Below are positions 36,401-59,400 of a DNA stretch of 64,000 nt, piece after piece. Positions within the stretch are counted from its first letter, which is position 1. Each line of letters starts with the position of its first letter. The translations under genes were made by a program, and so were the position numbers. The notes beneath the pieces are model-generated. The model did not search any database and was not told the origin of the DNA. It worked only from the letters and a program-made list of their open reading frames with translations. Source of the DNA: Chamaelirium japonicum (lineage: Eukaryota > Streptophyta > Magnoliopsida > Liliales > Melanthiaceae); contig CANTAL010000146.1 of assembly GCA_947650365.1 (NCBI GenBank), positions 682,001 through 746,000 on the forward strand. Reading direction: 5' to 3'.

Positions 36401-37701
36401 TCCATTCTAATTCATTCGCACGAATGTATCCATTCTAAATCATTCGTACGATCCATTCTAATTCATTCGTACGATCCATTCTAAATCATTCGTACAATCC
36501 ATTCTATTTCATTCATACGATCAATTCTAATTCATTCTAATTCATTCTATTTCATTCGTACGATCCGTTCTAATTCACTCATACGATCCATTCTAATTCA
36601 TTCATACGATCCATTCTAATTCATTTGCACGAATATATCCATTCTAATTCATTCGTACGATCCATTCTAATTCCTTCGTACAATCCATTCTAATTCCTTC
36701 GTACGATCCATTCTATTTCATTCGTATGATCCATTCTAATTCCTTCGTACGATCCATTCTAATTCCTTCGTATCCATTCTAATTCACTCGTACGATCCAT
36801 TCTAATTCATTCATACGATCTATTCTAATTCATTCATACAATCCATTCTAATTCTTTCACACGATCCATTCTAATTCATTCGTACGATCCATTCTAATTC
36901 ATTCGCACAATCCTTTCTATTTCATTCGTACGATCCATTCTGACTCATTGGTACGATCCATTCTAATTCATTCGCACGAATGTATCCATTCTAATTCATT
37001 CGTATGAATCCATTCTAATCCATTCGTACAATCTATTCTATTCCATTCTAATTCATTAGCATGATCCATTCTAATTCATTCGTACGATCCATTCTAATTC
37101 ATTCGTACGATCCATTCTAATTCATTCGTCCGATCCATTCTAATTCATTCGCACGAATGTATCCATTCTAATTCATTCGTTCGATCAATTCTAATTCATT
37201 AGCACGATCCATTCTAATTCATTCGTATGATCCATTCTAATTCATTCGCACGATCCATTCTAATTCATTCATAGGATCCATTCTAATTCATTCGTACGAT
37301 CCATTCTAGTTCATTCGTACGATCCATTCTAATTCATTCGAACAATCCATTCTATTTCATTCGTACGATCCATTCTTACTCATTGGTACGATCCATTCTA
37401 ATTCATTCGCACGAATGTATCCATTCTAATTCATTCGTACGAATCCATTCTAATTCATTCATACAATCTATTCTATTTCATTCGTACGATCCATTCTTAC
37501 TCATTCGTATGATCCATTCTAATTCATTCGGACGAATGTATCCATTCTAATTCATTCGTACGATCCATTCTAATTCATTCGTACGATCCATTCTAATTCA
37601 TTCGTACGATCCATTCTAATTCATTCGTCCGATCCATTCTAATTCATTCGCACGAATGTATCCATTCTAATTTATTCGTACGATCCATTCTAATTCATTC
37701 G
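33495..37701. repeat. Satellite block adjoining the retroelement
   Basis: Orientation is R 33495-34070, F to 34425, a very short R piece to about 34450, F to 35275, R to 35830 and F to 37701. The F part from about 35.8 kb is the longest uninterrupted F run next to the insertion. The last 240 bp (CTATTTCATT, CGGACGAATG, CGTCCGATCC, CGCACGAATG) reproduce the module at about 30030-30240. The array ends at TTCATTCG and foreign DNA starts immediately. Confidence 0.9.
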
Positions 37702-38880
37702 AGCAGCGACCTACTCCGGCTCTGCGACCTCTCGTCGTTAAGGCCGTGGAGAGGCGGGAGGTGCCACAGGTGGCACCTTTGCCCGGACCACCCGCAGTTC
37801 CTACCGTACAGCCCGCTGAAGCCCCCCAGGTGGTCGCTGGAAGGCCGGCAAACTAGCGCCAGCCTACGGGACCCGGGGAGCGGGATTTCACCGTGTTAAC
37901 CCACTCGCCAGGGCAAATCTTTCACCAGATTCGGAACGAACCTTTCTTTCAGTATCCCCCCCCTACAGGTCGGGGAGCCCGGCTCAACCGACAATTCGCG
38001 GCGGTGCGCCTTTCATCGCAGCCCCGGGCATCACACCAACAGATGTCGGGCTCTCAAGAACTACCTCGAGGACTTGGTCACCCAGGGCCATTTGAATCAG
38101 TTTATTTCGCCTCCAAGGAGGTTCGAGGTGATACCGGCACGGGCTCCTCGGGAGGAAGATCGCCCGGGGCCCACTGAGCCCGCCCTGCCTCCACCGCCCC
38201 CGGGAGGGCCGGCGGTCTGTCACACCATCAGTGGGCGCCTGAACGGCCCAAGATCTAGCAACGAGGTTCGGCGGCAAGTTAGAGAGATGGAGCGGGCTCA
38301 GAAGGTATTCTCTGTTTCTCTAACTCCTGTACTGCACCAAACACCAAGGGTAGAAGTCCGAGACTTTATCTGGTTCTCGGAGGAGGACATGGCCAGGGTG
38401 GTTACCCCCCACAATGATCCCCTCGTCATACGCCTTATAATGGCGAACATCGAAGTAAGGCGGGTCCTGGTTGACCCAGGAAGTGCCGTAGACATCCTGT
38501 TCTTGTCGGCCTTCCAGCGAATGGGGTTGAGACAAATTGATTTGTCTCCCTCAACGGGCTCGCTCACCGGTTTCACCGGCGAGGTCGCTAAGGTGGTAGG
38601 GGAGATAACCCTCACCGTAACGGCGGGCCCGGAGGTGCGTCAAGTCCGCTTCACGGTGGTAGATGGACAGTCCACTTTCAATGCCATCCTAGAGCGACCT
38701 TGGCTGAGGCAGATGAAAGCAGTGTCCTCGCCTAATCACCAGGCCCTCAAGTTTCCCACAAACGGAGGGGTCGTGGTAATTCGAGGAGATCAGGTCGCCG
38801 CTACCAGGTGCGAGCAGGACGTCTTTCACCTCGCGGACGTTGAGGTCGCCGAGGCCAAAAGGCCCGCGCCCTCCTAGCAA
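37702..38880 (+). pseudogene. Gag (zinc-knuckle side) and protease region, fossil
   Basis: The left end has a proline-rich stretch typical of Tat Gag. A zinc-knuckle-like segment around 38010-38100 (HRSPGHHTNRC, then ALKNYLEDLVTQGHLNQFI) matches the conserved C-terminal part of Tat Gag. From about 38340 to 38830 follows an aspartic-protease-like domain with VLVDPGSAVDILF around 38465-38505 and a later FNAILERPWL segment, both standard in Tat proteases. In a working element Gag forms the particle and the protease cuts the polyprotein. Pol follows about 95 bp downstream on the same strand. It is treated as a broken fossil. Confidence 0.85.
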
Positions 38881-38973
38881 TTAACACCCACCTCGAGCGG
38901 GCTCCCTCAAAGCCCGAGAGAGGTCTCCTCGCTTAAATCCCCTACTTCACCCTCGGGTGGGAGCGGTGCGGAT

Positions 38974-41900
38974 ATGGAGCTCGAGGAGAAAGGTCGCCCA
39001 CCAGGATCCCGGGGAGGGAGTTTTCCCATTGCCGAGCCGCTACAAGAAGTCAACATCGGTAGCGAGGACGGACCGAGGATTGTTAGTCTCGGGACCTCGC
39101 TAACCAGGGGCGAGGTCCTGGCCCTAACTGATATACTCAGGGAATACCGCGACTTATTCGCCTGGAGCTTCGCGGACATGCCTGGGATTGACCCGGAGGT
39201 CGCTTGTCATCGTCTGCACACCATGAAAGAATTCCTGCCGGTCAAGCAAAAAGCTCGGCACATACCGGCTGCGAAGTCCATCGCAGTGGTGGCGGAGATA
39301 GACAAGCTAGAGCGGGCTGGCTTTATACGCGAGGCGTACTTCCCTGAGTGGATCTCCAATATTGTGGCGGTCCCCAAGAAGAGCGAGGCGGTGAGAGTGT
39401 GCATTGACTTCTCCGACCTCAATAAGGCATGCCCGAAGGATGGTTTTCCACTTCCACGAATAGGCGCACTGGTCGACGCAGCTGTCGGGTTCCAGGCCCT
39501 ATCCTTCATGGATGGATATTCAGGGTATAACCAGATACCTCTACACGTCGACGATCAAGAGAAGACCGCTTTCTATTCTGGGGCGGGCTACCAGAAGCTA
39601 TTCTGCTATCGCGTGATGCTTTTTGGACTTAAGAACGCTGGAGCGACCTACCAAAGGTTAGTCACTCAGATGTTTAAGGGTCAGATCGGCAGGAATGTCG
39701 AAGTTTATGTGGACGACCTCCTGGTGAAAAGTCGAGAGCGAGAGGGGCATGTCGCCGATCTCTGCGAAACCTTTGAAGTGTTGAGAAAGTACCAAATGAG
39801 GCTGAACCCGGCAAAGTGCGCATTCGGGGTGACTTCTGGGAAATTCCTAGGGTACCTGGCCACCCACAGGGGGATCGAGGCGGACCCTGGGCAAATCCGA
39901 GCACTTGTCGAGATGCCCGCACCAAAAACCCGGCAGGAAGTCCAAAGGTTGAGCGGGCGAATCGCCGCGCTCAATCGATTCATCTCCAAATCCTCAGACA
40001 ACTGCCGACCTCTTTTCGAGCTACTTCGAAAAGGAGCGAGCATATGTTGGGATGAAAAGTGCGAGCACGCTTTTCAGAAGATCAAGGACTATCTGGCGAG
40101 CCCGCCAATCCTAGCGGCGCCTAAGGAGGGTGCCGAGCTGGGCGTGTACCTGGCAGTCACCGAGAATGCGGTAAGCGGAGTCCTTGTTGTGGAAGAAGCA
40201 AAGGTGGAGCGGCCTGTCTACTTTGTAAGCCACACAATGCTTCCCGCCGAGCTCCGGTATCGACCAATCGAGAAGGTCGCATTGGCCTTTGTCCTTACCG
40301 CGAGAAAGCTTCACCCCTACTTCTCGGCGCACCCTGTTAAGGTCATCACGGAGCACCCTCTAAAGAGCACGCTCTCCAGACCCTCGGTGGCCGGCAGGCT
40401 CTACCGATGGTCCGCCGAGCTCGCCGCCTATGGTTTGGAGTATGTCCCTCGAGTTGCTGTCAAAGGGCAGGCTCTCGCCAATTTCTTGGCGGACTTCCCC
40501 ATAGAAGAACCAGTCCAGTACCAGGAGGATGAGCCAACTGAGGCACATCCTGGGAAGGCGAGGTTCTTGAACAACCAAGGCGAGCTTCCTCCAACTAAGC
40601 ATTCAGAGATGGCGGGCTGGGAATTATTCGTCGATGGATCCTCCAACGCTTTGGGGGCCGGGATCGGGGTTGCACTGATCGCTCAGTCGGTAATTCTTGA
40701 GAAATCAGTCCGGTTGGATTTCGCTGCTACCAACAACGAAGTAGAATATGAGGCATTGTTGGCTGGTCTGGAGCTCGCTCAAGAGGTAGGCGCCAAGCGC
40801 TTGAAGGTTTTCAGCGATTCCCAACTAATTATTTGCCAAATCAATGGAGAGTACGCCTCCCGGGATGCGCGAATGGCGGGCTATATGGATCTGGTAAAGG
40901 GCAAGGCCACAGAGTTCGAAAAGATCTCTTTCGAGCAAATCCCTCGAACCGATAATAGGCGAGCTGATGCATTGGCAAACGCTGCCTGCCTGCTGGGAAC
41001 ATCAGAAGCTCGCCAGATTCTCATCGAGGTCCAGAATCAGTCTCGGCTCCGACTGATAGAGCCCGTTGTTAACCAAGTCTCCGCCGACGTACCACCCGGC
41101 GGATGGACCGCCCCCATTCTTTGTTTTCTCCAGAAGGGCGAGCTTCCAGAGAATAGAGAGGAAGCCCGGCGAGTGGAGAAATGCGCTGGGCGCTACCTCA
41201 TTCGCTGGGATCTCCTTTTTCGAAGATCCTTTGGCGGGCCAAATCTTCGTTGCGTCGAGAGCCCGGAGACCGAAGAAGTTTTGAATAGCATTCACTCGGG
41301 CGAGCTGGGAAACCACGCTGGTGGGCGGTCTCTAGCTGCGAAAGTACGGAGGCAAAGATACTGGTGGCCCACTCTGGAGCAAGATGCCTTGAAGATCGCA
41401 CAAAGCTGCATCCAATGCCAGAAGCACGCCACGACAAATCATATGCCCGCAGAGGAACTGCATCCTCTGGCGAGCCCCTGGCCGTTTCAACAATGGGGGT
41501 TAGATATTGTGGGACTTTTCCCCGTATCAGCCCGGCAAAAGAAATTCATCTTAGTGGCAACGGACTACTTCACCAAATGGGTGGAAGCGGTCCCGCTAGC
41601 TAAGATAGGCGAAAAGCAAGTAAGAGACTTCCTTTGGAAGAATATTTTCTGCCGGTTCGGTCTGCCTCGGGTACTTATCACCGACAATGGTCGCTAGTTC
41701 GATAATCGCTTGATCAGAAGCTTTTGTGTTGAATATGGAGTCGACCTAAGGTTCTCGTCCCCAAGGTACCCTCAAAGCAATGGGCAGGCCGAAGCTACGA
41801 ATCGTGTAATCCTAGACAACCTCAAGAAAAGGCTGGAAGGGAAAAAAGGATTGTGGGAGCAGGAGCTCGATGGAGTCTTGTGGGCCTATCGCACTACTCC

Positions 41901-42339
41901 ACGTCGCTCAACTAACGAGTCCCCTTTCAGTCTCACTTTTGGTTGCGAAGCCGTGCTACCCATCGAAGCCGAGCTGCTCACTGAAAGAATGCTTGCGTCG
42001 GAGGAGGTCGACAACGACAAACTGCTCGTCGACTCCCTCGATCAGCTCAAAGAAAGACGAGAGCGCGCCAATCTACACCTCGCCGGATATAGACAGGAAA
42101 TGAAGCGCGCCTATGACAAAAGAGTCCGCCACCGGGCATTCAAGGCTGGCGATCTGGTGATGAGAAAGGTGTTCGCAAACACGCAAGAGCCTAATGCAGG
42201 AAAGCTCGCGGCGAACTTGGAAGGCCCCTACATAGTACACGAAGCACGAAGCTCGGGGGCTTACCGGTTGATGACCGCTGGAGGCGACCTGTTAGAGCGA
42301 CCTTGGAACGCTTTGCACCTTCGCAAGTTTTATGCATAA
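38974..42339 (+). pseudogene. Pol region: RT, two RNase H domains, integrase (fossil)
   Basis: Domains in order: reverse transcriptase about 39230-39860 (CIDFSDLNKACPKD, FMDGYSGYNQI, and the catalytic YVDD at 39706-39717); the Gypsy RNase H about 40070-40500; a linker; a second, archaeal-type RNase H about 40615-40985 (LFVDGSS, with its first Asp codon at 40633, then ATNNEVEYEAL and FSDSQLI); the integrase zinc finger (His at 41293 and 41314, Cys at 41407 and 41416); the integrase core beginning at WGLDIVG near 41500; and a GPY-type tail (NLEGPYIV) near 42210-42240 with no chromodomain. The second RNase H is the hallmark of the Tat lineage. In a live element this polyprotein copies the RNA genome and integrates the DNA. 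This copy is broken and not expected to work. Confidence 0.95.
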
Positions 42340-42454
42340 GACCAAGGGATTTTGTAAATCAACTCCTGAAAAAGTTATGAATGAGCGATGGGGGTTTCAA
42401 CAAAGAATTTAACTAGGAAGCTCGGCGCAGCAAGAGCCCCAATGATCTATAACG
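42340..42454 (+). other. Spacer after pol
   Basis: This short non-coding stretch of the retroelement lies between the end of pol and the 78-bp repeats. I see no motif in it. Confidence 0.6.
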
Positions 42455-42885
42455 TGCAGTCCGCCGTTGTGCGGACTTAAAACAAGATCGGGATCCTCAG
42501 AGGCAGCCAGTGGGCGACCTTGAGATTCTCGGGGCAGTCCGCCGTTGTGCGGACTTAAAGCAAGACCGGGATCCTCAGAGGCAGCCAGTGGGCGACCTTG
42601 AGCTTCCCGGGGCAGTCCACCGTCGTGCGGACTTAAAACAAGACCGGGATCCTCAGAGGCAGCCAGTGGGCGACCTTGAGATTCCCGGGGCAGTCCGCCG
42701 TTGTGCGGACTTAAAGCAAGACCGGGATCCTCAGAGGCAGCCAGTGGGCAACCTTGAGATTCCCGGGGCAGTCCGCCGTTGTGCGGACTTAAAGCAAGAC
42801 CGGGATCCTCAGAGGCAGCCAGTGGGCGACCTTGAGATTCCCGGGGAAGTCCGCTGCCTAGTGGACTCTAAACCTAACCGGGATC
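42455..42885 (+). repeat. 78-bp tandem repeats, each with a hairpin
   Basis: The stem start recurs at 42461, 42539, 42617, 42695, 42773 and 42851, exactly 78 bp apart, giving five full units and a partial sixth. Each unit carries AGTCCGC, a 6-nt loop and GCGGACT, a 7-bp hairpin. The last unit has changed on both arms yet still pairs through one G-T wobble. Because 78 is a multiple of three, the array reads as an open frame of 26-residue repeats (42510-42926). I regard that as a by-product, since it has no match to a known Gag, Pol or accessory protein that I can recognise. The array lies in the long 3' region typical of Tat elements. Confidence 0.93.
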
Positions 42886-43346
42886 CTTCGTGTTCACCTG
42901 CCATGAACGGAAGCATCCTGGCATGAGCGTACCCCTCAAAGGGCAAATCCGCTGAATAGGATCATCGAGGGAAATTAACCGGGTAGGGGGCAGCTAGCAC
43001 TTATTAGTTTCTTTCAAAAATAAAAATGGTTTAAGTCTCTGAGTGTAGGGAAGTTTTTGAAGTCTTTTGGTTCGCTTATCATTTTTCCGGGCTCAGGGAC
43101 TATATTGAGGTTTAGCGAGCATGCCGAGTTTTTAGTTTGCATGTATTTTAAAATAAAATGGTTGAATCGAATTAGTTGCCTCGCCCGGGGTATCACTCTC
43201 GAGATCACTGCGAAACTCCTAAAGCGGACTCATGAGCGGATTCGCAGAAAGAAAAGAAACACAGAAGAGTACACAAAGGCGAGCTCAGAAATATTCTATT
43301 CATCACATTTATCGTAAAGATTACAACAGGGTTACAAAGATATAGC
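42886..43346. other. Spacer between 78-bp repeats and antisense gene
   Basis: This is AT-richer non-coding retroelement DNA lying just beyond the 3' end of the antisense gene, so it probably includes that gene's 3' UTR. No canonical AATAAA was found on the minus strand. Short open frames here on both strands have no recognisable content. Confidence 0.5.
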
Positions 43347-46290
43347 CTAGGCTGGGCCCGCGCCAGCGCCCTCGTCGTCGTCGCGCTTCCTCTTCTTCGA
43401 CCTTTCGGTCTTGTATTTCTTGATGGCGTCCAGCGCGCCCTTCTGGAGGAGCTCGCCCAGCTGCGACTGGAGGCGCTCTCGCTGGGAGTTGAGGTCGCGG
43501 AGATGGGCCTCCTTCAGCGCCGCGATCTCATCCCGGGAGGCCGCTACCTGGCTGCGGAGCTCAAGGATCTCTTTCTGGGCGGCCTCTTTGGCTTTGGTCG
43601 CCTCTTGTAGGTCAGCAAGGGCGCGAGCGCGAGCCTCCTCGACCGAGGCTATCCCCGTGGTGAGAGTGGCAGCCCGCTGGCGCAGTTGGGCAACCTCTGT
43701 ATCAACAGAGGCGGCCTGCTGGCGCAGCCGGTCCACCTCAGCTCGGAGCTCGCCGGATCGGTCCGCCTGGTGAAGCTGGTGGATGTGCTCGTCTACTCTC
43801 CTCTCCGAGCTATGGAGAGTGTCATCGTAGAGAGCAACCGTGTCCCCCGCAACGCCGGCGACCTCATCGGCGAGGGCCCGGCTGACTCGCTCCACCTACG
43901 CCAAGGTGAAACAGTTAGAGAAAGTCCTAGGAAGGATTTAAGGCGGAGAAATGTGAAGGTAATCTTACCTCGAGGAGTCGGTTGATGAGGGCGATGTAGG
44001 GAGTCCGGGCGAAAATGTTGTGCCCCAGGATTTCCCGCGTGAAGTAGGGGGCGCGCTCGGGGTCGCCTGAGGAGGAGCCCGCCTGGCTCACCTCAGTTGG
44101 GGCAGCCGGGGAAGGCGCATCGACGGCAGTAGCGGCGGGCTCGCCCCCTTGAGCGCCGGCACCCCCTTCCTTGGTAAGGGGAGGCACGGCGGCACCCCCT
44201 TTCCCGAGCAAGTCTGGCTCCGAGGCTTCCGAGCTGGAGCTCGGAAGGTCGTCCAGGATGGCCCCCAGGTCCGGAGACCAGTAGACCAACCCGTCCAGCT
44301 CCGGGAGGATAGGAGCCTCGAGAGCAGAGGGCGCGCTGGCAGCAGAGGGCGCAAGCGCGCTGGCAGCGGCAGGCGCGGGCGCGGGTGTGGGCGCGGGCGC
44401 ACTGGAAGCGGCCAACGCGGGCTCGGGTGCGGGCGCGCTGGGAGCCATAGGCGCGGGTGCAGGCGCGGGCGCACTGGAAGCGGCCGGCGCGGGCTCGGGT
44501 GCGGGCGCACTGGGAGCCATAGGCGCGGGTGTGGGCGTGGGCGCACTGGAATTAGCGGGCACGGGCGCGGGCGCGCTGCCAACAGAGGGCACAGACGCAC
44601 TGGGGGCAATAGGCGCGGGCTCGAGCGCAGGCGCGCTGGGGGCAGTAGGCGCGGGCTCGGGCGCAGGCGCGCTGGGGGCAGTAGGCATGGGCTCGGGCGC
44701 GGGCGCGGGCGCGCTGGCAGCAGCGGGCGCGGGCGTGCTGGGAGCAGGCGCGGCCGGCGCTGGTGTCTCACTCGGAGCAGGCGGAAGGGTTGAGCTCGGC
44801 GGAGCCGGTCCCTCGAAGGGCGGGGGAGGCCCCGCAGTTGCAGTCGCGGGCTCATCTCCCGAAGCCCGCTCCTCGTCGTCGGAGCTGGAGGTCGTGCTGA
44901 GATCATCGGCTGATCCCAAGCCCGCCTCCACGAGGGCGACCTTCCTCCGCTCCTCGAGGACCTGTTGGAAGGCTTCGCGAGCCTCCCGAACAGCGTTGTC
45001 CTCTCCCGATGGGCAGGCTGAAGGGGTCTTCTTCTTCCTCGCCTTCTTCTGCGAGGCGCCCTCCTCTGGATTCATCACCGCAACAAACAAAGTTTTAGTC
45101 AGGTCACCTGGGAATCCGCGCATCAGCACTTCAGCCATTGGGGACTCCACTTCCGCCATGCTGAGAAGAAGCTCGACGCACGGATCCTCGGGCTCGACGA
45201 AGGAAATGCGACGTCGCCGAGGCTCCGAGACTGGGGCCCTCGGAGAAATGACAGAAAGGGTGGTCGCCTGACCTTGGGCTGCTTCGCGGGCTGGTGGCGG
45301 CGGTGGCGCGACATCCTCCTCATGGAGCATCTCGAGGGTGTCCTTGTCGGCGACCTGAATGGGGGAAGCCCGCTTCTTCCCCTTCTTCACCGAGGTCCCC
45401 GCAGAGGAGGTTGCGGGAGCCGCCGTGGAGGTCGCGGTAGCACGCCGGGAGACCGCGACCTTCTTCTGCATCACCTTCTGGCGGGTGGTGATGGTTCCGG
45501 TCCGGAGATCCTTCCAGAGGAAGGAAAAGTCCGACGGGAGGACCTTCTCGAGGGTTCGACCCCCGAGGAAGTCCAGAATCGCCTCATCGAGCGATCTCTC
45601 GCGGGCTGCGGCGATGCATTTCTTTCCCTTTGCCCGGTATTCCGCGATCTCCTTGAAGACAGGGAGAGGCGGTCTACCGGGAAGAGAGGGGACGTCGGCT
45701 CGAGGACCTCGCCACTCGCCGTCGATCACGAACGGGTAGGCTTTCCAGTACCGGTCCTTATTCTCGACGGCGGTGAACGGAAGCACCTCGCCGGAGCGGC
45801 CCGTGAGGTATAACTGACCACAGTCTACCTCGTTGAAGACGGGTCCCGGTTTCAGGAACCACTTCTTCAGGAGGTAGGCTAGGGGGATCCTCGCGTTTAG
45901 GGCTTCCTCGATGCGAGCAAGCTCATAGAGGATCCCCCACGAGTTTCCCGGAAGCTGGGCAGGGCATAAGCCCGCTAGTTCCAGGAGCTCACTGGCCAGA
46001 TGGTTCAGGGGCAGCCGGAGCCCTGACCATATCTGCCCCACGGAGACCACGGTCCCCGAGAGCGGCCTCCCGGAGCTCGGAAGAGGAAGAATGGCGAGCT
46101 CTTGGGGAATGCCCACCGCGGTTCGCAGACTATCGGGGATGGGCACACCCCCGATGTTATTGAACCAAACGACGGCGGGCTCCTTCGGAGGTGCCTCTTC
46201 CCCTGAGCCCGAAGCCCGCACCGAGATAGGGGCAACATTGAGAGGCCCCTCTCGGGAGGATGCAGAAGTAGCAGCAGCAGAGGAAGCCAT
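43347..46290 (-). CDS. Antisense gene of the Tat element, apparently two exons
   Basis: A long minus-strand gene fills the 3' region. I chose the ATG at 46290 (MASSAAATSASS) because the frame upstream offers only a TTG. The first block, 46290-43969 (774 codons), has an N-terminal globular part of about 300 residues (for example GVPIPDSLRTAVGIP and LKKWFLKPGPVFNEVDCGQL), then basic and acidic stretches, then a long Ala/Pro low-complexity region made of APAPEPAPTAPS-like repeats. The second block, 43895-43347 (182 codons), is a strong coiled-coil candidate rich in Glu, Arg, Ala and Gln, ending in a basic nuclear-localisation-like KTERSKKRKRDDD. The 73 bp between them look like an intron: AG/GTAAGA donor, CTAAC branch-like site, GCGTAG acceptor, with both blocks in phase 0. 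Antisense genes in this position are known in Tat elements, but their function is not established and I recognise no enzyme motif. Confidence 0.75.
43896..43968 (-). other. Probable 73-nt intron in the antisense gene
   Basis: On the minus strand the segment begins GTAAGA after CTCGAG and ends GCGTAG before GTGGAG, with TTTCTCTAACTG upstream of the acceptor as a branch-point candidate. It is T-rich compared with the flanking coding DNA. The exon before it ends on a codon boundary and the next block starts on one. The size is near the lower end for plant introns. The call is an inference from consensus sites only. Confidence 0.72.
44240..44800 (-). repeat. Ala/Pro codon repeat within the antisense gene
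   Basis: This is a GC-rich minisatellite-like region with alternating GCGCCC and GGCGCG motifs, encoding repeated Ala-Pro-rich blocks on the minus strand. It also creates long Arg/Pro-rich or Gly/Ala-rich open frames in other frames, which I treat as shadows. Probable intrinsically disordered linker. Confidence 0.8.
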
Positions 46291-46383
46291 GAGCAAGAAG
46301 GCGCTAGAGAGCTGCGAGCTGAAAGCAAAGAAGAAAGGGAGAGCTGTTTTTCACGCAGCGGTAGAAAATCGCCCCCCGTCCCC

Positions 46384-46391
46384 TATTTATA
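46384..46391 (-). promoter_or_regulatory. TATA box of the antisense gene
   Basis: The minus strand reads CTATAAATAGGG, a near-ideal plant TATA box, about 95 bp upstream of the chosen ATG at 46290. That leaves room for a transcription start near 46360 and a leader of about 70 nt. A CCAAT motif on the minus strand lies about 165 bp further upstream, near 46550. Separate transcription of the antisense gene is therefore plausible. Confidence 0.7.
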
Positions 46392-46699
46392 GGCAAGTGA
46401 AAGGCAGGTGAATCGGGCCGCAGTTAATACTCGAGCGCGCCCAACAAGGCGACACGCCGACGGTTGAAGCGACAGCTCGCCTTTTTCCAATCAGGCAGTG
46501 CCACGTGGACCACGCGTGGGAAAAGGCTGCGCCGGCACCGACGCTGTCCTTTATTGGCAGAAAAAGGAATAAATGAGAAGGAGACATGTGTCTCGCGCCG
46601 ATCAGGATCTCATGATGAGATTCATTGTATCAATATCGAGCCTCGCACCGTATTTAAGATGAAGCGACCGTTGGAGATTTGGAGCGATACCCGAGCCAC
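46392..46699. other. Upstream region of the antisense gene
   Basis: This stretch lies between the TATA box and the 146-bp repeats. It contains CCAAT-like sites in both orientations (near 46487 and 46550) and a CACGTGG element near 46503, a G-box-like motif. These are consistent with promoter function but prove nothing alone. Confidence 0.4.
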
Positions 46700-47440
46700 A
46701 AGATCGCCTAAGGCTGGTGCCCGCAGCTCGCCCGAGGCAGACCCTGACCGTGTGTGGCAAGCTCGCACCGGAAGGAGATTGCTCGTGGCTGATGCTCCCG
46801 GCCCGCCCAGCGTTTGTGAAATACTGGCAGTCAAAGCTCTCGGCGCAGACCACCCACGGCAGGTGCCCAAGCTCGCCCGAAGCAGACCCTGACCGCGTGT
46901 GACAAGCTCACACCGGAAGGAGATCGCTCGTGGCTGACGCTCCCGGCCCGCCCAGCGTTTGTGAAATACTGGCAGTCAAAGCTCTTGGCGCAGACCACCC
47001 ACGGCAGGTGCCCGCAGCTCGCCCGAGGCAGACCCTGACCGCGCGTGATGAGCTCGCGCCGGAAGGAGATCGCTCGTGGCTGACGCTCCCGGCCCGCCCA
47101 GCGTTTGTGAAATACTGGCAGTCAAAGCTCTCGGCGTAGACCGCCTACGGCAGGTGCCCGCAGCTCGCCCGAGGCAGACCCTGATCGCTTGTGATGAGCT
47201 CGCGCCGGAAGGAGATCGCTCGTGGCTGACGCTCGCGGCCCGCCCAGCATTTGTGAAATACTGGGAGTCAAAACTCTCGACAAAGATCGCCCACGGCTGG
47301 CGCCCAAGCTCGCACTGGAAGGAGATTGCTCGTGGCTGATGCTCCGGCCCGCCCAGCAGTTGCGAAATACTGACAGTCAAAGTTCTCGGCGCAGACCACC
47401 CGCGGTTGGTGCCCGTAGCCTACCGGGTGGAGGTCGCAAA
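46700..47440. repeat. 146-bp tandem repeats upstream of the antisense promoter
   Basis: The marker TTTGTGAAATACTGGCAGTC starts at about 46813, 46958, 47104 and 47250, giving periods of 145, 146 and 146 bp. A shortened copy follows 109 bp later. Each unit includes GCTCGTGGCTGA, GGCCCGCCCAGC and CTCGCCCGAGGCAGACCCTG. The array lies between the antisense gene and the LTR. Open frames on either strand here differ between copies and look non-coding. Confidence 0.9.
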
Positions 47441-47514
47441 TGACTAGAACTCCCAATTCGACCGTCGTGTGCAATAAGACTCCTGAGCAAGCGCCAAAGT
47501 CTCCTTGGTCGCTC

Positions 47515-47530
47515 CCTCAGGAGGGGGTAA
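47515..47530 (+). promoter_or_regulatory. Polypurine tract
   Basis: CTCAGGAGGGGGTAA directly precedes the TGTTGGGGG that opens the LTR. In LTR elements a purine run at this place primes plus-strand DNA synthesis. Confidence 0.75.
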
Positions 47531-47640
47531 TGTTGGGGGTAGCTGAAATCTGCTTTGGAGTTCGCCCCCCCTCTCCGCGCTCACCAAATCACCTTGACAG
47601 GGAGCGAGATCCACATTGGGCTGTAGGGGCCTTGGACTAA

Positions 47641-48003
47641 AAGCTCGCTCAGGAGCTCGCCCAAGCTCGCACAGGAGTTCGCTAGAAATGGCAGCGGGAG
47701 TTAGACCGTCATGCATGCAAAGATACCGGTACCACAAACGCCCCTAGCTCACGCAGGGGCTCGCCCAAGCTCGCGCAGGAGCTCGCCCAAGCTCGCGCAG
47801 GAGCTCGCCCAGGGAGCGAGCTCCGCATTGGGCCGAAGGGGCCTAGGCAAAGAGCTCGCTCAGGAGCTCGCCCAAGTTCGCTCAGGAGCTCGATCAAGCT
47901 CGCTCAGGAGCTCGCCCAAGTTCGCTCAGGAGCTCGATCAAACTCGCTCAGGAGCTCGCCCAAACTCGCTCAGGAGCTCGCCTAAGCTCGCTCAGGAGCT
48001 TGC
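47641..48003 (+). repeat. 22-bp tandem repeats in U3 of the LTR
   Basis: This is an imperfect array of units such as GAGCTCGCCCAAGCTCGC and CTCAGGAGCTCG, about 22 bp each. It is interrupted at about 47685-47750 and 47815-47850 by non-repeat sequence. It could act as an upstream enhancer-like array in U3. It also produces a spurious Arg/Ser-rich open frame. Confidence 0.85.
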
Positions 48004-48335
48004 CAGTTTATCGAAGAGGTCGCTCCCGCGAGGTCCGACTCTTGATAGATGTGGAAGAGAGGGCGGAGCAATGGAGGGCGAGCTCGCCTTGGCTCCCCAC
48101 CGGAGGTCGCCCACAGTGCACGAAGACCTCCCAGACTTGAATATTCCAGAATAGCCAGCTGGCAGCAACAAGAAAGATGCTCTCCCCCACTCAAACCGCC
48201 TGGCAGGCTCGACGATAAAGAATGTCAGGGCGTGAGTACCAAGGACTGTCAGAGACCCACGCGAGCCGGATCATGGGGGTCTAGAAGGCTCTGGAAGAAT
48301 CTCCACGTGTCGGGCCACGGTAGGCCGCCGATTGC

Positions 48336-48343
48336 TATAAATA
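48336..48343 (+). promoter_or_regulatory. TATA box of the LTR promoter
   Basis: GCTATAAATACTC lies about 200 bp before the LTR end on the plus strand. It would drive the genomic transcript toward the primer-binding site and gag. Confidence 0.75.
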
Positions 48344-48537
48344 CTCACCCCCAGGCTCCATAGTACAGGTTGGAAAACCTTTTCCCTACCACTTTCATCC
48401 ACAAAAGCTCGCCGTTGTGCACCTGAGACTGACTTGAGCGTCGGAGGGTCTGTGCTCCTACGGGAGCCAGCCGTTCTCACGCTTTTTCTTCGTCTTGCAG
48501 GTAGCCCGCACGGACCAGCGAAAACATCCCCCGAACA

Positions 48538-48556
48538 TTTGGCGCCGTCTGTGGGA
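48538..48556 (+). promoter_or_regulatory. Primer-binding site
   Basis: TTTGGCGCCGTCTGTGGGA follows the LTR end directly. TGGCGCC-type sites at this place are the tRNA-primer sites of Tat and many other plant Gypsy elements. I cannot assign the tRNA with certainty. Confidence 0.8.
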
Positions 48557-48578
48557 TCTTCGACTGGTTCCTGCGAGA

Positions 48579-48670
48579 ATGCTCCCGACCACGCGGTTGA
48601 ACGCCGTCGGCTCTCGTAACCCCAAAGATGGCTCTGGCGACAAGGGGACGCAGGCGACCAAGGACCCGTG
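48579..48670 (+). pseudogene. Start of gag at the right end of the insertion
   Basis: An ATG at 48579 begins a frame of about 30 codons (MLPTTRLNAVGSRNPKDG) running up to the satellite border. Its position just past the primer-binding site and a short leader is that of gag. Beyond the border the frame runs on into satellite repeats and has no meaning. Confidence 0.65.
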
Positions 48671-50580
48671 CGAATTCATTCTAATTCATTCATACAATCC
48701 ATTCTAATTCTTTCACACGATCTACTCTAATTCATTCGTAGGATCCATTCTAATTCATTCGTACAATCTATTCTATTTCATTCGTACGATCCATTCTTAC
48801 TCATTCGTATGATCCATTCTAATTCATTCGGACGAATGTATCCATTCTAATTTATTCGTACGATCCATTCTAGTTCATTCGTACGATCCATTCTAATTCA
48901 TTCGTACGATCCATTCTAATTCATTCGTATGATCCATTCTAATTAATTCGTATGATCCATTCTAATTCATTCGTATGATCCATTCTAATTCATTCATACA
49001 ATCCATTCTAATTCATTCGCACGAATGTATCCATTCTAATTAATTCGTACGATCCATTCTAATTCATTCGTATGATCCATTCTAATTCATTCGTACGATC
49101 CATTCTAATTCATTCGCACGATCTGTTCTTATTCATTCGCACAATCCATTCTAAACCATTCATACGATCCATTCTAATTTATTCGTACGATCCATTCTAA
49201 TTCATTCGTAAGATCCATTCTAATTCATTCGTCCGATCCATTCTAATTCATTCGTACGATCCATTCTGATTCATTCGCACGAATGTATCCATTCTAGTTC
49301 ATTCGTACGATCCATTCTAATTCATTCGTACGATCCATTCTAATTCATTCGCACGATCCATTCTAATTCATTCGTACGATCCATTCTAATTCATTCGCAC
49401 GAATGTATCCATTCTAATTCATTCGTACATATGATCCATTCTAATTCATTCGTACGATCCATTCTAATTCATTCGCACGATCTGTTCTTATTCATTCGCA
49501 CAATCCATTCTAATTCATTCGTACGAATATATCCATTTTAATTCATTCGTACGATCCATTCTAATTCATATGCACAAAGGTATCCATTCTAATTCATTCG
49601 TACGATCCATTCTAATTCAGGATCGTACAAATGAATTAGAATGGATACATTCGTGCGAATGAATTAGAATGGATCATACGAATGAGTAATAATGGATCGT
49701 ACGAATGAAATAGAATAGATTGTACGAATGAATTAGAATGGATCCTACGAATGAATTAGAATGGATCGTGTGAAAGAATTAGAATGGATTGTATGAATGA
49801 ATTAGAATGGATCGTACGAATGAATTAGAATTGATCGTACGAATGAATTAGAATGGATACATTCGTGCGAATGAATTTGAATTGATCGTACGAATGAATT
49901 AGAATGGATCGTGCGAATGAATTAGAATGGATCGTACGAATGAATTAGAATGGATCGTACGAATGAACTAGAATGGATACATTCATGCGAATGAATTAGA
50001 ATGGATCGTACGAATGAATTAGAATGGATCGTACGAATGAATTAGAATGGATCTTACGAATGAATTAGAATGGATCGTACGAATGAATTAGAATGGATCG
50101 TACGAATGAATTAGAATGGATACATTCGTGCGAATGAATTAGAATGGATCGGACGAATGAATTAAAATGGATCGTACGAATAAATTAGAATGGATCGTAC
50201 GAATAAATTAGAATGGATACATTCGTCCGAATGAATTAGAATAGATCATACGAATGAGTAAGAATGGATCGTAAGAATGGATCGTAAGAATGAAATAGAA
50301 TGGATCGTACGAATGAATCGTGCAAATGAATTAGAATGGATCGTATGAATGTATTAGAATGGATCGTATGAGTGAATTAGAATGGATCGTACGAATGAAT
50401 TAGAATGGATTATATGAATGAATTAGAATGGATCGTACGAATGAATTAGAACGGATCATACGAATTAATTAGAATGGATCATACAAATGAATGAGAATGG
50501 AACGTACGAATGAATTAGAATGGATCGTGTGAAAGAATTAGAATGGATTGTATGAATGAATTAGAATGAATTCGTTCGAT
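48671..50580. repeat. Higher-order segment S, copy 1
   Basis: It starts at the insertion edge with CGAATTCATTC. Orientation is F to 49618, R to 50570, then F. It matches 59749-61526 in direct orientation: offset 11078 at the start, 11051 at the TTCAGGATCG junction (49620 and 60671), and 10946 at GAATTCGTTCGAT (50580 and 61526). Confidence 0.85.
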
Positions 50581-53500
50581 CAATTCTAATTCATTAGCAC
50601 GATCCATTCTAATTCATTCGTACGATCCATTCTAATTCATTCGCACGATCCATTCTAATTCATTCGTACGATCCATTCTAATTCTTTCACACGATCCATT
50701 CTAATTCATTCGTACGATCCATTCTAATTCATTCGTACGATCTATTATAATTCATTCGCGCAATCTATTCTAATTCATTCGTACGATCCATTCTAATTCA
50801 TTCGTACGATCCATTCTAATTCATTCATACAATCCATTCTAATTTATTCGCACGAATGTATCCATTCTAATTCATCCGTACGATCCATTCTAATTCATTC
50901 GCACAATCTATTCTATTTCATTCATACGATCCATTCTAATTCATTCGCACGAATGTATCCATTCTAATTCATTCATACGATCCATTCTACTTCATTCGTA
51001 CTATCCGTTCTAATTCACTCATACGATCCATTCTAATTCATTCGTACGATCCTGAATTAGAATGGATCGTACGAATGAATTAGAATGGATACCTTTGTGC
51101 ATATGAATTAGAATGGATCATACGAATGAATTAGAATGGATCGTACGAATGAATTAGAATGGATCGTACGAATGAATTAGAATGGATCATACGAATGAAT
51201 TAGAATGGATCATACGAATGAGTAAGAATGGATCGTACGAATGAAATAGAATGGATTGTACGAATGAATTAGAATGGATACATTCGTGCGAATGAATTAG
51301 AATGGATCGTACGAATGAATTAGAATGGATCGTGCGAATGAATTAGAATGGATTGTATGAATGAATTACAATGGATCGTACGAATGAATTAGAATGGATC
51401 GTACGAATGAATTAGAATGGATCGTACGAATGAAATAGAATGGATTGTACGAATGAATTAGAATGGATCGTGTGAATGAATTTGAATGGATTGTACGAAT
51501 GAATTAGAAAGGATCGTGCTAATGAATTTGAATTGATCGTACGAAGGAAATAGAATGGATTGTACGAATGATTTAGAATGGATCGTACGAATGAATTAGA
51601 ATGGATCGTACGAATGATATAGAATGGATACATTCGTGCGAATGAATTAGAATGGATCATACGATTGAGTAAGAATGGATCGTACGAATGAAATAGAATG
51701 GATTGTACGAATGAATTAGTATGGATTCGTACGAATGAATTAGAATGGATACATTCGTGCGAATGAATTAGAATGGATCGTACCAATGATTAAGAATGGA
51801 TCGTACGAATGAAATAGAATGGATTGTGCGAATGAATTAGAATGGATCGTACGAATGAATTAGAATGGATCGTGTGAATGAATTAGAATGGATCGTACGA
51901 ATGGATTAGAATGGATCGTGTGAAAGAATTAGAATGGATTGTATGAATGAATTAGAATAGATCGTATGAATGAATTAGAATGGATCGTACGATTGAATTA
52001 GAATGGATCGTACGAATGAATTAGAATGGATACATTCGTGCGAATGAATTAGAATGGATCGTACGAATGAATTAGAATGGATCGTACGAATGAATTAGAA
52101 TGGATCTTACGAATGAATTAGAATGGATCGTACGAATGAATTAGAATGGATCGTACGAATGAACTAGAATGGATGCATTCGTGCGAATGAATTAGAATGG
52201 ATCGTACGAATGAATTAGAATGGATCGTACGAATGAATTAGAATGGATCTTACGAATGAATTAGAAAGGATCGTAAGAATGAATTAGAATGGATCGTACG
52301 AATGAATTAGAATGGATACATTCGTGATCGTACGAATGAATTAGAATGGATCGTACGAATAAATTAGAATGGATCGTGGGAATGAATTAGAATGGATCGT
52401 ACGAATGAATGAGAATGGATCCACCGAATGAGTTAGAATGGATCATACGAATGAATTAGACTGGATTGTACGAATGAATTAGAATGGATTGTGCGAATGA
52501 ATTAGAATAGATCGTACGAATGAATTAGAATGGATCGTACGAATGAATTAGAATGGATCAAATGAATGAATTAGAATGGTTACATTCATGCGAATGAATT
52601 AGAATGGATCGTACGAATGGATTAGAATGGATCGTACGAATGGATTAGAATGGATACATTCGTGCGAATGAATTAGAATGGATCATATGAATAAATTAGA
52701 ATAGATTGTGCGAATGAATTAGAATGGATCATACGAATGAATTAGAATGGATACATTCGTGCGAATAAATTAGAATGGATTGTATGAATGAATTAGAATG
52801 GATCGTACGAATGAATTAGAATGGATCGTACGAATGAATTATAATAGATTGCACGAATGAATTAGAATGGATCGTACGAATGAATTAGAATGGATCGTAC
52901 GAAGGAATTAGAATGGATCGTACGAATGAATTAGAATGGATCGTACGAATGGATTAGAATGGATCATACGAATGTATTAGAATGGATACATTCGTGCGAA
53001 TGAATAAGAATGGATCGTATGAATGAATTAGAATAGATTGTGCGAATGAATTAGAATGGATCGTACGAATGAATTAGAATGGATACATTCGTGCGAATAT
53101 ATTAGAATGGATTGTATGAATGAATTAGAATGGATCGTACGAATGAATTAGAATGGATCGTATGAATGAATTAGAATAGATCGTACGAAGGAATTAGAAT
53201 GGATCGTACGAATGAAATAGAATGGATCGTACGAATGAGTTAGAATGGATCGTACGAATGAATTAGAATGGAACGTACGATTGAATTAGAATGGATCATA
53301 CGAATGAGTAAGAATGGATCGTATGAATGAATTAGATTGGATCGTACGATCCATTCTAATTCATTAGCATGGATCGTGCTAATGAATTAGAATGGAATAT
53401 AGGAATAAATTAGAATGGATCGTAGAATGGATCGTACGAATGAATTAGAATAGATCATAGGAATGAATTAGAATGGATCGTGCAAATGAATTAGAATTGA

Positions 53501-54569
53501 TACATTCGTGCGAATGAATTAGAATGGATCGTGCGAATGAATTAGAATGGATCGTACGAATGAATTAGAATGGATATATTTGAATGAATAAATTAGAATG
53601 GATCATACGAATGAATTAGAATGGATCGTACGAATGAATTAGAATGGATAGTGCGAATGAATTAGAATCGATCGTACGAATGAATTAGAATGGATCGTAC
53701 GAATGATTTAGAATGGATCATACGAATGAGTAAGAATGGATCGTACGAATGAATTAGAATGGATCGTACGAATGAATTAGAATGGATCGTACGAATAAAT
53801 TAGAATTGATACATTCATCTGAATGAATTAGAATGGATCATACGAATGAGTAAGAATGGATCGTACGAATGAAATAGAGTAGATTGTACGAATGAATTAG
53901 AATGGATCCTACGAATGAATTAGAATGGATCGTGTGAACGAATTAGAATGGATTGTATGAATGAATTAGAATGGATCGTACGAATGAATTATAATGGATC
54001 GTACGAATGAATTAGAATGGATATATTCGTGCAAATGAATTAGAATGGATCGTATGAGTGTATTAGAATGGATCGTATGAGTGAATTAGAATGGATCGTA
54101 CGAATGAATTAGAATGGATTGTATGAATGAATTAGAATGGATCGTACGAATGAATTAGAATGGATCGTATGAATGAATGGATCATACGAATGAATTAGAA
54201 TGGATCGTACGAAAGAATTAGAATGGATAGTGCGAATGAATTAGAATCGATCGTACGAATGAATTAGAATGGATCGTACGAATGAATTAGAATGGATTGT
54301 ATGAATGAATTACAATGGATCGTACGAATGAATTAGAATGGATCGTACGAATGAATTAGAATGGATCAAATGAATGAATTAGAATGGTTATATTCATGCG
54401 AATAAATTAGAATGGATCGTACGAATGGATTAGAATGGATCGTATGAGTGAATTAGAATGGATACGAAGGAATTAGAATGGATCGTACGAAAGAATTAGA
54501 ATGGATCATACGAATAAAATAGAATGGATCGTACGAATGAAATAGAATGGATCGTACGAAGGAATTAGA
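50581..54569. repeat. Satellite block, mostly R orientation
   Basis: It is F to about 51050, switches at the GATCCTGAATTAG junction also seen at 7155 and 14400, then R to 54569 except for the fold-back at 53351. Near 52418 it carries GGATCCACCGAATGAG, the reverse complement (with one change) of the CAGTGGATCC module near 4911, 12461 and 24383, so this is an inverted copy. The R run gives a 124-codon open frame at 51412-51786 on the minus strand, which is a repeat by-product. Confidence 0.88.
53351..53395. repeat. Perfect 19-bp inverted repeat, 7-nt spacer
   Basis: CCATTCTAATTCATTAGCA at 53351-53369 is followed by TGGATCG and by its exact reverse complement at 53377-53395. It is preceded by another palindrome, TGGATCGTACGATCCA. 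This is a single F monomer embedded in a long R block, and it could extrude as a cruciform. Confidence 0.92.
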
Positions 54570-56490
54570 ATGCATTCGTATGATCCATTCTAATTCATTC
54601 GGACGATCCATTCAAATTCATTCATACGATCCATTCTAATTCATTCGCACGAATATATCCATTCTAATTCTTTCGTACGATGCATTCTAATTCATTCGTT
54701 CGATCAATTCTAATTCATTAGCACGATCCATTCTAATTCATTCGTACGATCAATTCTAATTCATTCGTACGATCCATTCTAATTCATTCATAGGATCCAT
54801 TCTAATTCATTCATACGATCTATTCTAATTCTTTCGCACGAATGTATCCATTCTAATTCATTCGCACGAATGTATCCATTCTAATTCATTCGTACGAATC
54901 TATTCTAATTCATTCGTACAATCTATTCTATTTCATTCGTACGATCCATTCTAGTTCATTCGTACGATCCATTCTAATTCATTCGTACGATCCATTCTAA
55001 TTCATTCGTATGATCCATTCTAATTAATTCGTATGATCCATTCTAATTCATTCGTACGATCCATTCTAATTCATTCATACAATCCATTCTAATTCATTCG
55101 CACGAATGTATTCATTCTAATTAATTCGTACGATCCATTCTAATTAATTCGTACGATCCATTCTAATTCATTTGTATGATCCATTCTTATTAATTAGCAC
55201 GATCCAGTCTAATGGATTCGCACGATCCATTCTAATTCATTCATACGATCCATTCTAATTCATTCGTACGATCCATTCTAATTCATTCGCACAAATGTAT
55301 CCATTCTAATTCATTCGTACGATCCATTCTAATTCATTCGTACGATCAGTTCTAATTCATTCACAAAATCTATTCTAATTCATTCATACGATCCATTCTA
55401 ATTCATTCGCACGATCCATTCTAATTCATTCGTAAGATCAATTCTAATTCATTCGTACGATCGATTCTAATTCATTCGCACGATCCATTCTAATTCATTC
55501 ATACGATCCATTCTAATTCATTCGTACGATCCATTCTAATTCATTCGCACGATCCATTCTAATTCATTCGTACGATCCATTCTAATTCATTCGTACGATC
55601 CATTCTAATTCATTCGCATGAATGTATCCATTCTAATTCATTCGTACGATCCATTCTAATTCATTCGTATGATCTATTCTTATTCATTAGCACGATCCAG
55701 TCTAATTGATTCGCACGATCCATTCTAATTCATTCGCACGAATGTATCCATTCTAATTCATTCGTACGATCCATTCTAATTCATTAATATGATCCATTCT
55801 AATTCATTCGTACGATCCATTCTAATTCATATGCACAAAGGTATCCATTGTAATTCATTCGCACGAAAGAATTAGAATGGATTGTATGAAAGAATTAGAA
55901 TGGATCATGCGAATGAATTAGAATGGATCGTACGAAGGAATTAGAATTGATCGTACGAAGGAATTAGAATGGATCATACGAATGAGTAAGAATGGATCGT
56001 ACAAATGAATTAGAATGGATCGTACGAATAAATTAGAATGGATACATTCGTCCGAATGAATTAGAATGGATCATACGAATGAGTAAGAATGGATCGTACG
56101 AATGAAATAGAATAGATTGTACGAATGAATTAGAATGGATCGTATGAATGAATTAGAATGGATCGTATGAGTAAATTAGAATGGATAGTACGAATGAAGT
56201 AGAATGGATCGTATGAACGAATTAGAATAGATTGTGCGAATGAATTAGAATGGATCGTACGAATGAATTAGAATGGATACATTCGTGCGAATAAATTAGA
56301 ATGGATCGTACAAATGAATTAGAATGGATCGTACGAATGAATTAGAATGGATCATACGAATGAGTAAGAATGGATCGTACAAATGAAATAGAATGGATTG
56401 TACGAATGAATTAGAATGGATCCTACGAATGAATTAGAATAGATCGTGTGAAAGAATTAGAATGGATTGTATGAATGAATTAGAATGAAT
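54570..56490. repeat. Satellite block, F then R
   Basis: It is F to 55866 and R to 56490. The end of the F part (CATATGCACAAAGG near 55830, then GCACGAAAGAATTAG) is the same F-to-R junction as near 3955, 11500 and 23450. The block therefore contains another direct copy of part of segments P and Q. Confidence 0.85.
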
Positions 56491-59400
56491 TCGTACGATC
56501 CATTCGAATTCATTCGCACGATCCATTCTAATTCATTCGTACGATCCATTCTAATTCATTCGTAGGATCCATTCTAATTCATTCGTAAGATCCATTCTAA
56601 TTCATTCGTACGATCCATTCTAATTCATTCGTACAATCCATTCTAATTCATTCGCACGAATGAATTAGAATGGATCGTACGAATGAATTAGAATGGATCA
56701 TATTAATGAATTAGAATGGATCGTACGAATGAATTAGAATGGATACATTCGTGCGAATAAATTAGAATGGATTGTATGAATGAATTAGAATGGATCGAAC
56801 GAATGAATTAGAATGGATCGTACGAATGAATTAGAATAGATTGCGCGAATGAATTAGAATGGATCGTACGAATGAATTAAAATGGATCATACGAAGGAAT
56901 TAGAATGGATCGTACGAATGAATTAGAATGGATCGTACGAATGAATTAGAATGGATCGTACGGAGGAATTAGAATGGATCGTACGAATGAATTAGAATGG
57001 ATCGTACGATTGAATTAGAATGGATCATACGAATGAGTAAGAATGGATCATATGAATGAATTAGATTGGATCATACGATCCATTCTAATTCATTAGCATG
57101 GATCGTGCTAATGAATTAGAATGGAATATACGAATGAATTAGAATGGATCGTAGAATGGATCGTACGAATGAATTAGAATGAATTAGAATGGATCGTACG
57201 AATGAATTAGAATAGATCATAGGAATGAATTAGAATGGATCGTGCAAATGAATTAGAATGGATACATTCGTGCAAATAAATTAGAATGGATCGTACGAAT
57301 GAATTAGAATGGATCGTACGAATGAATTAGAATAGATTGCGCGAATGAATTAGAATGGATCGTACGAATTAATTAGAATGGATACATTCGTGCGAATGAA
57401 TTAGAATGGATACATTCGTGCGAATGAATTAGAATGGATTGTATGAATGAATTAGAATGGATCGTACGAATGAATTAGAATGGATCATACGAATTAATTA
57501 GAATGGATCATACGAATGAATTAGAATGGATCGTACGAATGAATTAGAATGGATCGTACGAATGAATTAGAATGGATCGTACGAATGAATTAGAATGGAT
57601 CGTGCGAATGAATTAGAATGGATCGTACGAATGAATTAGAATGGATACATTTGTGCGAATGAATTAGAATGGATCGTACGAATGAATTAGAATGAATCGT
57701 ATGAATGAATTAGAATGGATCGTACGAATGAATTAGAATGGATCGTGCGAATGTATTAGAATGGATCGTACGAATGATTTAAAATGGATCGTGTGAAAGA
57801 ATTAGAATGGATCGTACGAATGAATTAGAATGGATCGTGCGAATGAATTAGAATGGATCGTATGAATGAATTAGAATAGATTTAGTGAATGAATTAGAAC
57901 TGATCGTACGAATGAATTAGAATGGATCGTACGAATGAATTAGAATGTATACATTTGTGCGAATGAATTAGAATGGATCGTACGAATGAATTAGAATGGA
58001 TCTTATGAATGAATTAGAATGGATACATTCGTGCGAATGAATTAGAATGGATCGTGCGAATCCATTAGACTGGATCGTGCGAATGAATAAGAATGGATCA
58101 TACGAATGAATTAGAATGGATCGTACGAATTAATTAGAATGGATACATTCGTGCGAATGAATTAGAATGGATTGTATGAATGAATTAGAATGGATCGTAC
58201 GAATGAATTAGAATGGATCATACGAATTAATTAGAATAGATCATACGAATGAATTAGAATGGATCGTACGAATGAATTAGAATGGATCGTACGAATGAAC
58301 TAGAATGGATCGTACGAATGAAATAGAATAGATTGTACGAATGAATTAGAATGGATTCGTACGAATGAATTAGAATGGATACATTCGTGCGAATGAATTA
58401 GAATGGATACATTCGTGCAAAAGAATTAGAATAGATCGTATGAATGAATTAGAATGGATCCTATGAATGAATTAGAATGGATCGTGCGAATGAATTAGAA
58501 TGGATCGCACGAATGAATTAGAATGGATCGTGCTAATGAATTAGAATTGATCGAACGAATGAATTAGCATGGATCGTGCTAATGAATTAGAATGGATCGT
58601 ACGAATGAATTAGAATGGATCAAATGAATGAATTAGAATGGTTACATTCATGCGAATGAATTAGAATGGATCGTACGAATGGATTAGAATAGATCGTACG
58701 AATGGATTAGAATGGATACATTCGAGCGAATGAATTAGAATGGATCGTACGGAATGAATTCGAATGGATTGTATGAATGAATTAGAATGGATACATTCGT
58801 GCGAATGAATTAGAATGGATCGTGCGAATGAATTAGAATGGATTCGTACGAATGAATTAGAATGGATACATTCGTGCGAATGAATTAGAATGGATCGTAC
58901 CAATGAGTAAGAATGGATCGTATGAATGAAATAGAATGGATCGTACGAATGAATTATAATGGATCGTACGTAATGAATTAGAATGGATTGTATGAATGAA
59001 TTAGAATGGATCGTACGAATGAATTAGAATGGATCATACGAATTAATTAGAATGGATCATACAAATGAATTAGAATGGATCGTACGAATGGATTAGAATG
59101 GATTGTACCAATGAGTAAGAATGGATCGTGCGAATGAATTAGAATGGATCAGACGAATGAATTAGAATGGATCGTACGAATGAATTAGAGCGGATCGTAC
59201 GAATGAATTAGAATGGATCGTACGAATAAATTAGAAAGGATACATTCGTCCGAATGAATTAGAATGGATCATACGAATGAGTAAGAATGGATCGTACGAA
59301 TGAATTAGAATGGATCGTACGAATGAATTAGAATGGATCGTACGAATGAATTAGAATGGATCATACGAATGAATTAGAATGGATCATACGAATGAGTAAG

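Follow-up and report, generated by a model that had tools for sequence, protein, structure and literature searches.

How does a retrotransposon come to lie in satellite DNA with one long terminal repeat (LTR) in its interior and gag sequence at both of its ends? A locus of Chamaelirium japonicum raises this question. The DNA studied, here called the window, comprises 64,000 nucleotides (positions 682001–746000 of contig CANTAL010000146.1, hereafter C158, in a 1.52 Gb assembly; window coordinates 1–64000). Tandem Repeats Finder (TRF) revealed a 23-bp satellite (TCGTACGATCCATTCTAATTCAT) throughout the window, apart from one insert at 37702–48670 with a G+C content of about 54–68% in 2-kb windows, compared with 33% in the surroundings. 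The insert is a copy of what appears to be a Retand-like LTR retrotransposon, and its parts run in the order gag end/protease, pol, 78-bp repeats, antisense open reading frame (ORF), 146-bp repeats, polypurine tract (PPT), one LTR, primer-binding site (PBS) and gag start, with exact borders at 37701/37702 and 48670/48671. An earlier note, made from the letters of the window, had described this order with satellite on both sides, and our analysis bore it out. Tentatively, we suggest that the copy may derive from a one-LTR circle captured at a break in the satellite.

The evidence begins with the position of the LTR. This single repeat of 1,007 bp (TGTTGGGGG...CCCCGAACA; 47531–48537, plus strand) has ends that recur elsewhere, many other loci beginning at 47531 or ending at 48537. 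The PPT GGAGGGGG (47520–47527, plus strand) lies directly upstream of it, and the PBS TGGCGCCGTCTGTGGGA (48540–48556, plus strand) was assigned by its position and TGG start, without a tRNA match. Genome-wide, 2,123 PPT-LTR joints and 1,640 LTR-PBS joints were found at ≤1 mismatch. Because the PPT and PBS regions flank the LTR directly, it is not a solo LTR. The borders of the insert are formed by gag, with the 3′ part and protease region at 37702–38877 (plus strand; open frame 37900–38877) on the left, and the leader and gag start at 48557–48670 (plus strand), cut at CCGTG, on the right. No target-site duplication (TSD) was found at the borders 37702 and 48670, nor an LTR remnant at either, and with gag at both borders the copy is not a conventional insertion. 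One-LTR extrachromosomal circles have PPT, LTR and PBS joined and hold at most one unit; the window copy likewise has its only LTR between PPT and PBS and does not exceed one unit.

To compare this arrangement with that of relatives, a first family search scored the best 40 of 1,161 candidate loci, and loci chosen as best matches to the window element were fetched. These were nine copies, besides one on contig C23, each in two pieces, and their order was established by piecewise BLAST. Two LTRs in the conventional order (LTR-PBS-gag-pol-spacer-antisense-3′ region-LTR) were present in eight of the nine, some of them internally deleted, which shows the window copy to be circularly permuted and agrees with its earlier description as unlike a normal LTR-bounded insertion. 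The ninth (L021/L022, on C30) starts inside pol, at L021:7532 directly after satellite, and has a 3′ LTR only; it provides another type of junction with satellite in which no LTR takes part. In the window copy, the two gag pieces are not complementary halves, since relatives have an extra 1,282–1,284 bp between them in the 14 loci common to both best-40 match lists, and the window copy is without 1,284 bp of gag. A one-LTR unit thus measures 12,253 bp, of which the window keeps 10,969 bp (89.5%). That the gap is a multiple of three was treated as a coincidence. The earlier note was right about gag at both ends; the loss of 1,284 bp, the bases shared at the joints and the family relatives in satellite had escaped it.

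At the left joint, the satellite (ATTCATTCG) is followed by AGCAGCG, and relatives read CAGTCG followed by AGCAG in 22 of 22 rows (two rows overlap), so that TCG (37699–37701, plus strand) is a 3-bp microhomology common to satellite and gag. At the right joint, the gag bases CCGTG are followed by CGAATTC; CGA (48671–48673, plus strand) is common to the relatives' gag (CCGTGCGAG) and the satellite (CGTACGAATTC), the relatives continuing with CGA in 20 of 24 rows, TGA in three and GGA in one. Inspection for microhomology, which the earlier note had proposed, thus yielded 3 bp at each joint. The joint patterns at ≤2 mismatches occurred genome-wide only on contigs C158 and C23, and therefore mark a single locus or a pair of loci rather than a recurrent unit. 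The preferred integrase cut in CGTACG is 2 bp away from each joint; as every 23-bp unit offers two such cuts, this distance should be frequent in any case, and we make no claim from it.

The satellite around the joints allows the empty site to be approached. The flanks of the element are in phase within the monomer and have the same orientation, and when joined (40 + 40 bp) they matched many array positions over 80 bases at 91–94%, the array being 1–2 bases longer among the matches listed, as for the filling of a small break. Over 300 bp, the right flank found its best match (98.7%) at 59745, a point of switching from minus to plus orientation in the array, and all nine other window copies of CGAATTCATTCTAATTC are turning points in their own orientation. 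The chance of a strand-switch break within 3 bp of the right joint is about 0.12%, a coincidence noticed post hoc. The empty site was thus either an ordinary unit that lost about 2 bp or a turning point, at which the loss may have been larger. Later growth of satellite around the element, as the earlier note had envisaged for an array slice, is not needed with flanks in phase and in the same orientation, although the right flank may derive from a strand-switch site. Separately, positions 37419–37701 resemble 48717–48998, which start 46 bp to the right of the element (about 283 bp; identical in 264 of 288 aligned columns). A long TSD was rejected, as other array positions are nearer to the flanks (reaching 97.5% for the left one and 98.7% for the right one), and the likeness therefore represents ordinary higher-order similarity.

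We also searched the genome for units that share an LTR, as the earlier note had recommended, and found them. With the PPT-LTR-PBS-gag start stretch (47400–48670) as query, full cover was obtained only in the window and on C23 among the best 40 of 5,604 matches, the other scored matches being 5′ LTRs, 3′ LTRs, solo LTRs or partial matches; this list missed a locus at C1:30.107 Mb and says little on frequency. Exact 26-mers located 50 PBS joints and at least 100 PPT joints on C1 (to 135.42 Mb). Among the matches listed, 24 of the 50 PBS sites had a PPT 8–14 kb downstream, and one had a PPT one LTR upstream. This last site was confirmed by sequence as a contiguous PPT-LTR-PBS at C1:30,106,427–30,107,650 (L051, C1:30106350–30107650), 89% identical. 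Of nine probes of 70–80 bp around it, those on one side detected in turn gag, spacer, LTR-type repeats and satellite, and those on the other detected satellite, which fits a short deletion derivative arranged in tandem. C60 carries two PBS-gag stretches, at 1118080 and 1123950 (L031 and L032), that lie 5,870 bp apart and are 99.7% identical over 3.26 kb, with a pol match to the first 323 bp only; they are probably a tandem of a pol-deleted derivative. Two C1 PBS sites are spaced by 12,342 bp, about one unit length. In addition, C54:401906–403989, among the best 40, carries a PPT and partial LTR that are followed after 260 bp by a complete LTR-PBS in the same orientation, possibly an LTR-LTR junction or expanded LTR repeats.

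The joined PPT-LTR-PBS supports a source DNA in which these three parts were already contiguous. For that source the earlier note had offered a circle or an element array; circular permutation and the joined parts are supported, and neither source is decisively favoured. Our tentative first choice is a one-LTR circle that opened in gag and was captured by microhomology-mediated end joining without integrase. A Retand-like LTR retrotransposon would have left a ring with PPT, LTR and PBS joined, the ring would have opened inside gag, where about 1.3 kb would have been lost, and the resulting linear DNA would then have been joined into a satellite break. Integrase is left out of this proposal because the permuted copy is without the LTR ends, the duplication and the register of conventional copies, and integrase-mediated entry of a permuted piece was rejected in view of gag at both ends and the lack of a duplication. 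Conventional copies in the satellite end in LTRs and are flanked by short duplications (8/8, described below), so that the lack of both is particular to the window copy. Retention of 89.5%, below and close to one unit, favours a circle, which predicts at most one unit; if an array were cut at arbitrary places, we estimate that about a fifth of the pieces would come as near to one unit (2 × 1.3/12.3). As for the supply of circles, an excerpt of PMC12273906 reports that centromeric ATHILA copies contribute disproportionately to the extrachromosomal circular DNA of Arabidopsis. A realistic, if somewhat doubtful, alternative is a slice of a head-to-tail array (LTR-int-LTR-int-LTR, formed by unequal or ectopic LTR recombination) that was trimmed into gag on both sides, or a template-switch copy from an array elsewhere. 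Such arrays are a product of ectopic recombination according to part of PMC12477314, and the short C1 derivative, with satellite on both sides of its contiguous PPT-LTR-PBS, together with the PBS spacings on C60 and C1, is consistent with them. A slice needs loss of an element end twice, and L021 has suffered such a loss once, joining satellite in pol. Yet two deletions, or a lucky copy, must then end 1.28 kb apart in one gene, no further unit stands beside the element, which has satellite on both sides within the window, and full cover of 47400–48670 was confined to the window and C23 in the best-40 comparison.

Several observations weigh against a captured circle. No circle was observed, and no donor was found, as no scored locus other than C23 exceeded 98% identity among the best 40 per query. 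Shared-LTR units are present in the family, and an array slice needs no circle; the straight junction of the cut pol of L021 to satellite shows that end-loss joints occur, which helps the array. Sharing of three bases is possible by chance. Finally, at 59745 the sequence preceding the joint is satellite in minus orientation, so that the loss or rearrangement of satellite may exceed 2 bp. With all this considered, we slightly prefer the circle to the array slice. The window copy has in common with one-LTR circles the joined PPT-LTR-PBS and differs in being integrated, opened in gag, shortened by 1,284 bp and known from genomic sequence alone; it has the same feature in common with shared-LTR tandem arrays and differs in having no second unit and in meeting satellite within gag at each end. 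It is improbable that a conventional insertion was later rearranged in the satellite, by inversion or by exchange with a neighbouring copy at LTR and gag. The array does change orientation about every 0.9 kb (60 blocks) and so is frequently rearranged, but this course requires that both outer LTRs were lost, of which neither border retains a remnant, and that another internal region was fused exactly at the PBS. Fusion of element and satellite in assembly is very unlikely, hard as satellite arrays are to assemble. The copy at C23:1010482–1021441 has the same order and joints, and with satellite counted in it is 99.46% identical to the window over 9,009 aligned bases and 99.58% over 9,500 (99.5% over 18.5 kb in total). 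It carries its own substitutions in satellite and element (left satellite 23/4,481, element 17/4,519 and 34/6,441, right satellite 6/3,059 compared sites), and rare 60-mers anchor both window ends in C23, the right span differing by 47 bp and the left being about 19.8 kb longer there. Because substitutions of its own accompany identical joints, mis-assembly, which the earlier note had named as refuting, is largely rejected; the C23 copy is either an allele or a recent duplicate.

In our judgement, copies that enter by repair and not by integrase can seldom be read at both joints. The window copy is a well-readable case of apparent repair-type entry, for which the conventional relatives in the satellite serve as a control. 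In the fetched loci, LTR starts without a preceding PPT had satellite upstream in 15 of 15 cases (L012, L014, L015, L017, L019, L024, L026, L028, L041–L046 and L048). At 14 of these 5′ LTR ends, the exception being L041, the monomer was broken at one place, the LTR following directly on GAATGGATCG, GAATGGATTG, GAATGGATAC or the complement ACGATC. Eight copies with both flanks had duplications, of 5 bp in five (CAATC, GATCG, GATCG, CAATC and CGATC in locus orientation) and of 3 bp in three, these three at one site. LTR starts with the register pattern, a degenerate one that about 1 in 512 flanks would match by chance at equal base use, numbered 476 genome-wide; 18 of the 476 strings were read, and all were satellite ends. 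On C1, a register LTR start lay upstream of 18 of the 50 exact PBS sites, compared with an expected 0.017 per site for random insertion with 19% satellite; the binomial value of 1e-19 is overstated because the copies are not independent, and at most of the remaining 32 sites the context may differ or the end may be altered.

The copies at equal positions appear to share more than a register. The 5′ flanks of four same-site pairs were 97.1–98.6% identical, compared with 84% for one different-site pair, and one same-site pair of 3′ flanks was 95% identical. Sites were shared within the groups L017/L019/L028, L015/L026 and L012/L024, with flank divergence close to LTR-LTR divergence. By flank strings the fetched copies represent about seven sites. 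Same-site copies most simply arose by amplification with the satellite; as a caution, part of PMC2679016 attributes identical rDNA positions to duplication and not to site choice. The GATCG duplication fits the base preferences at TSDs given in an excerpt of PMC6911290. In the portion of PMC6317226 concerned, 1,008 of 1,024 TSD 5-mers were represented across plant elements and integration was taken as random, whereas here most examined relatives lie at one satellite-monomer register. A literature search on satellite-register insertion of LTR elements returned no such report within the papers covered and the search words used. We tentatively propose a Retand-like family with register-specific integration into a 23-bp satellite that makes up about a fifth of a 1.5-Gb genome, in which amplification of the satellite multiplies copies and in which, as would have happened in the window, end joining may place retroelement circles at satellite breaks. 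The apparent satellite-register habit of the family is the wider point beyond the window copy. If true, an integrase without a recognised chromodomain that chooses a single 5-bp position within a unit of 23 bp would be a simple, countable system for the study of satellite choice, and of how satellite turnover, not transposition, raises the copy number of an element.

The assignment of the family rests on domain order, antisense ORF and repeats, which would fit a Retand-like element (Tat clade, Ty3/gypsy). The pol region (38878–42339, plus strand) was delimited by ORFs and Pfam matches to reverse transcriptase, RNase H, a second RNase H-like domain and integrase, in the order RVT_1, RT_RNaseH, RVT_3, Integrase_H2C2 and rve; we read RVT_3 as the second RNase H. 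The aspartyl protease match in 37702–38877 was weak (E 0.006, below the cut-off), and no Pfam match to a chromodomain was found at the pol end of the window copy. A stop ending at 41697 breaks the pol frame and another lies between the gag/protease and pol frames, and the permuted copy therefore looks broken. Tandem repeats of 78 bp (42456–42854) separate pol from the antisense frames (43347–46350, minus strand), which run at 43927–46350 (807 codons open) and 43347–43895. Against Transposase_28 (PF04195) the antisense ORF reached E 0.082 and 13.6 bits (cut-off 26.2), with no match at 0.001. The 3′ non-coding region contains 146-bp tandem repeats (46712–47313). As described in parts of PMC11963269 and PMC6317226, Retand elements combine the order RT-RNaseH-second RNaseH-integrase with a long region between pol and 3′ LTR, an antisense ORF and tandem repeats. 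All three traits were present: a second RNase H between RNase H and integrase and, in the region from pol to the 3′ LTR, an antisense ORF as well as tandem repeats (the last in about half of elements); the window copy differs from Retand in being permuted, with one LTR, no TSD and a TRP28 domain below the cut-off. Retand of Silene latifolia is subtelomeric according to part of PMC12477314, so that the chromosomal niche has precedent. The same source, in part, describes ATHILA of Arabidopsis centromeric arrays, likewise a non-chromovirus gypsy lineage, of a sister clade, that invades satellite arrays; in C. japonicum the satellite unit is 23 bp, occupies about 19% of the genome, and the monomer register is shown.

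The satellite occupies 1–37701 to the left of the element, in blocks of alternating orientation with a plus block adjoining the element, and 48671–64000 to the right, plus-oriented at the joint (TRF and orientation blocks). Its share of the genome, about 292 Mb or 19%, was obtained from 5.94 million monomers at ≤1 mismatch with calibration on the window, and becomes 9% if each match is counted as 23 bp only. By motif count, strand changes occurred about every 0.9 kb and divided the array into 60 orientation blocks, with the element inside one block, and turning-point sequences, such as GGATCGTACGAATTCATTC, recurred in the satellite of the window.

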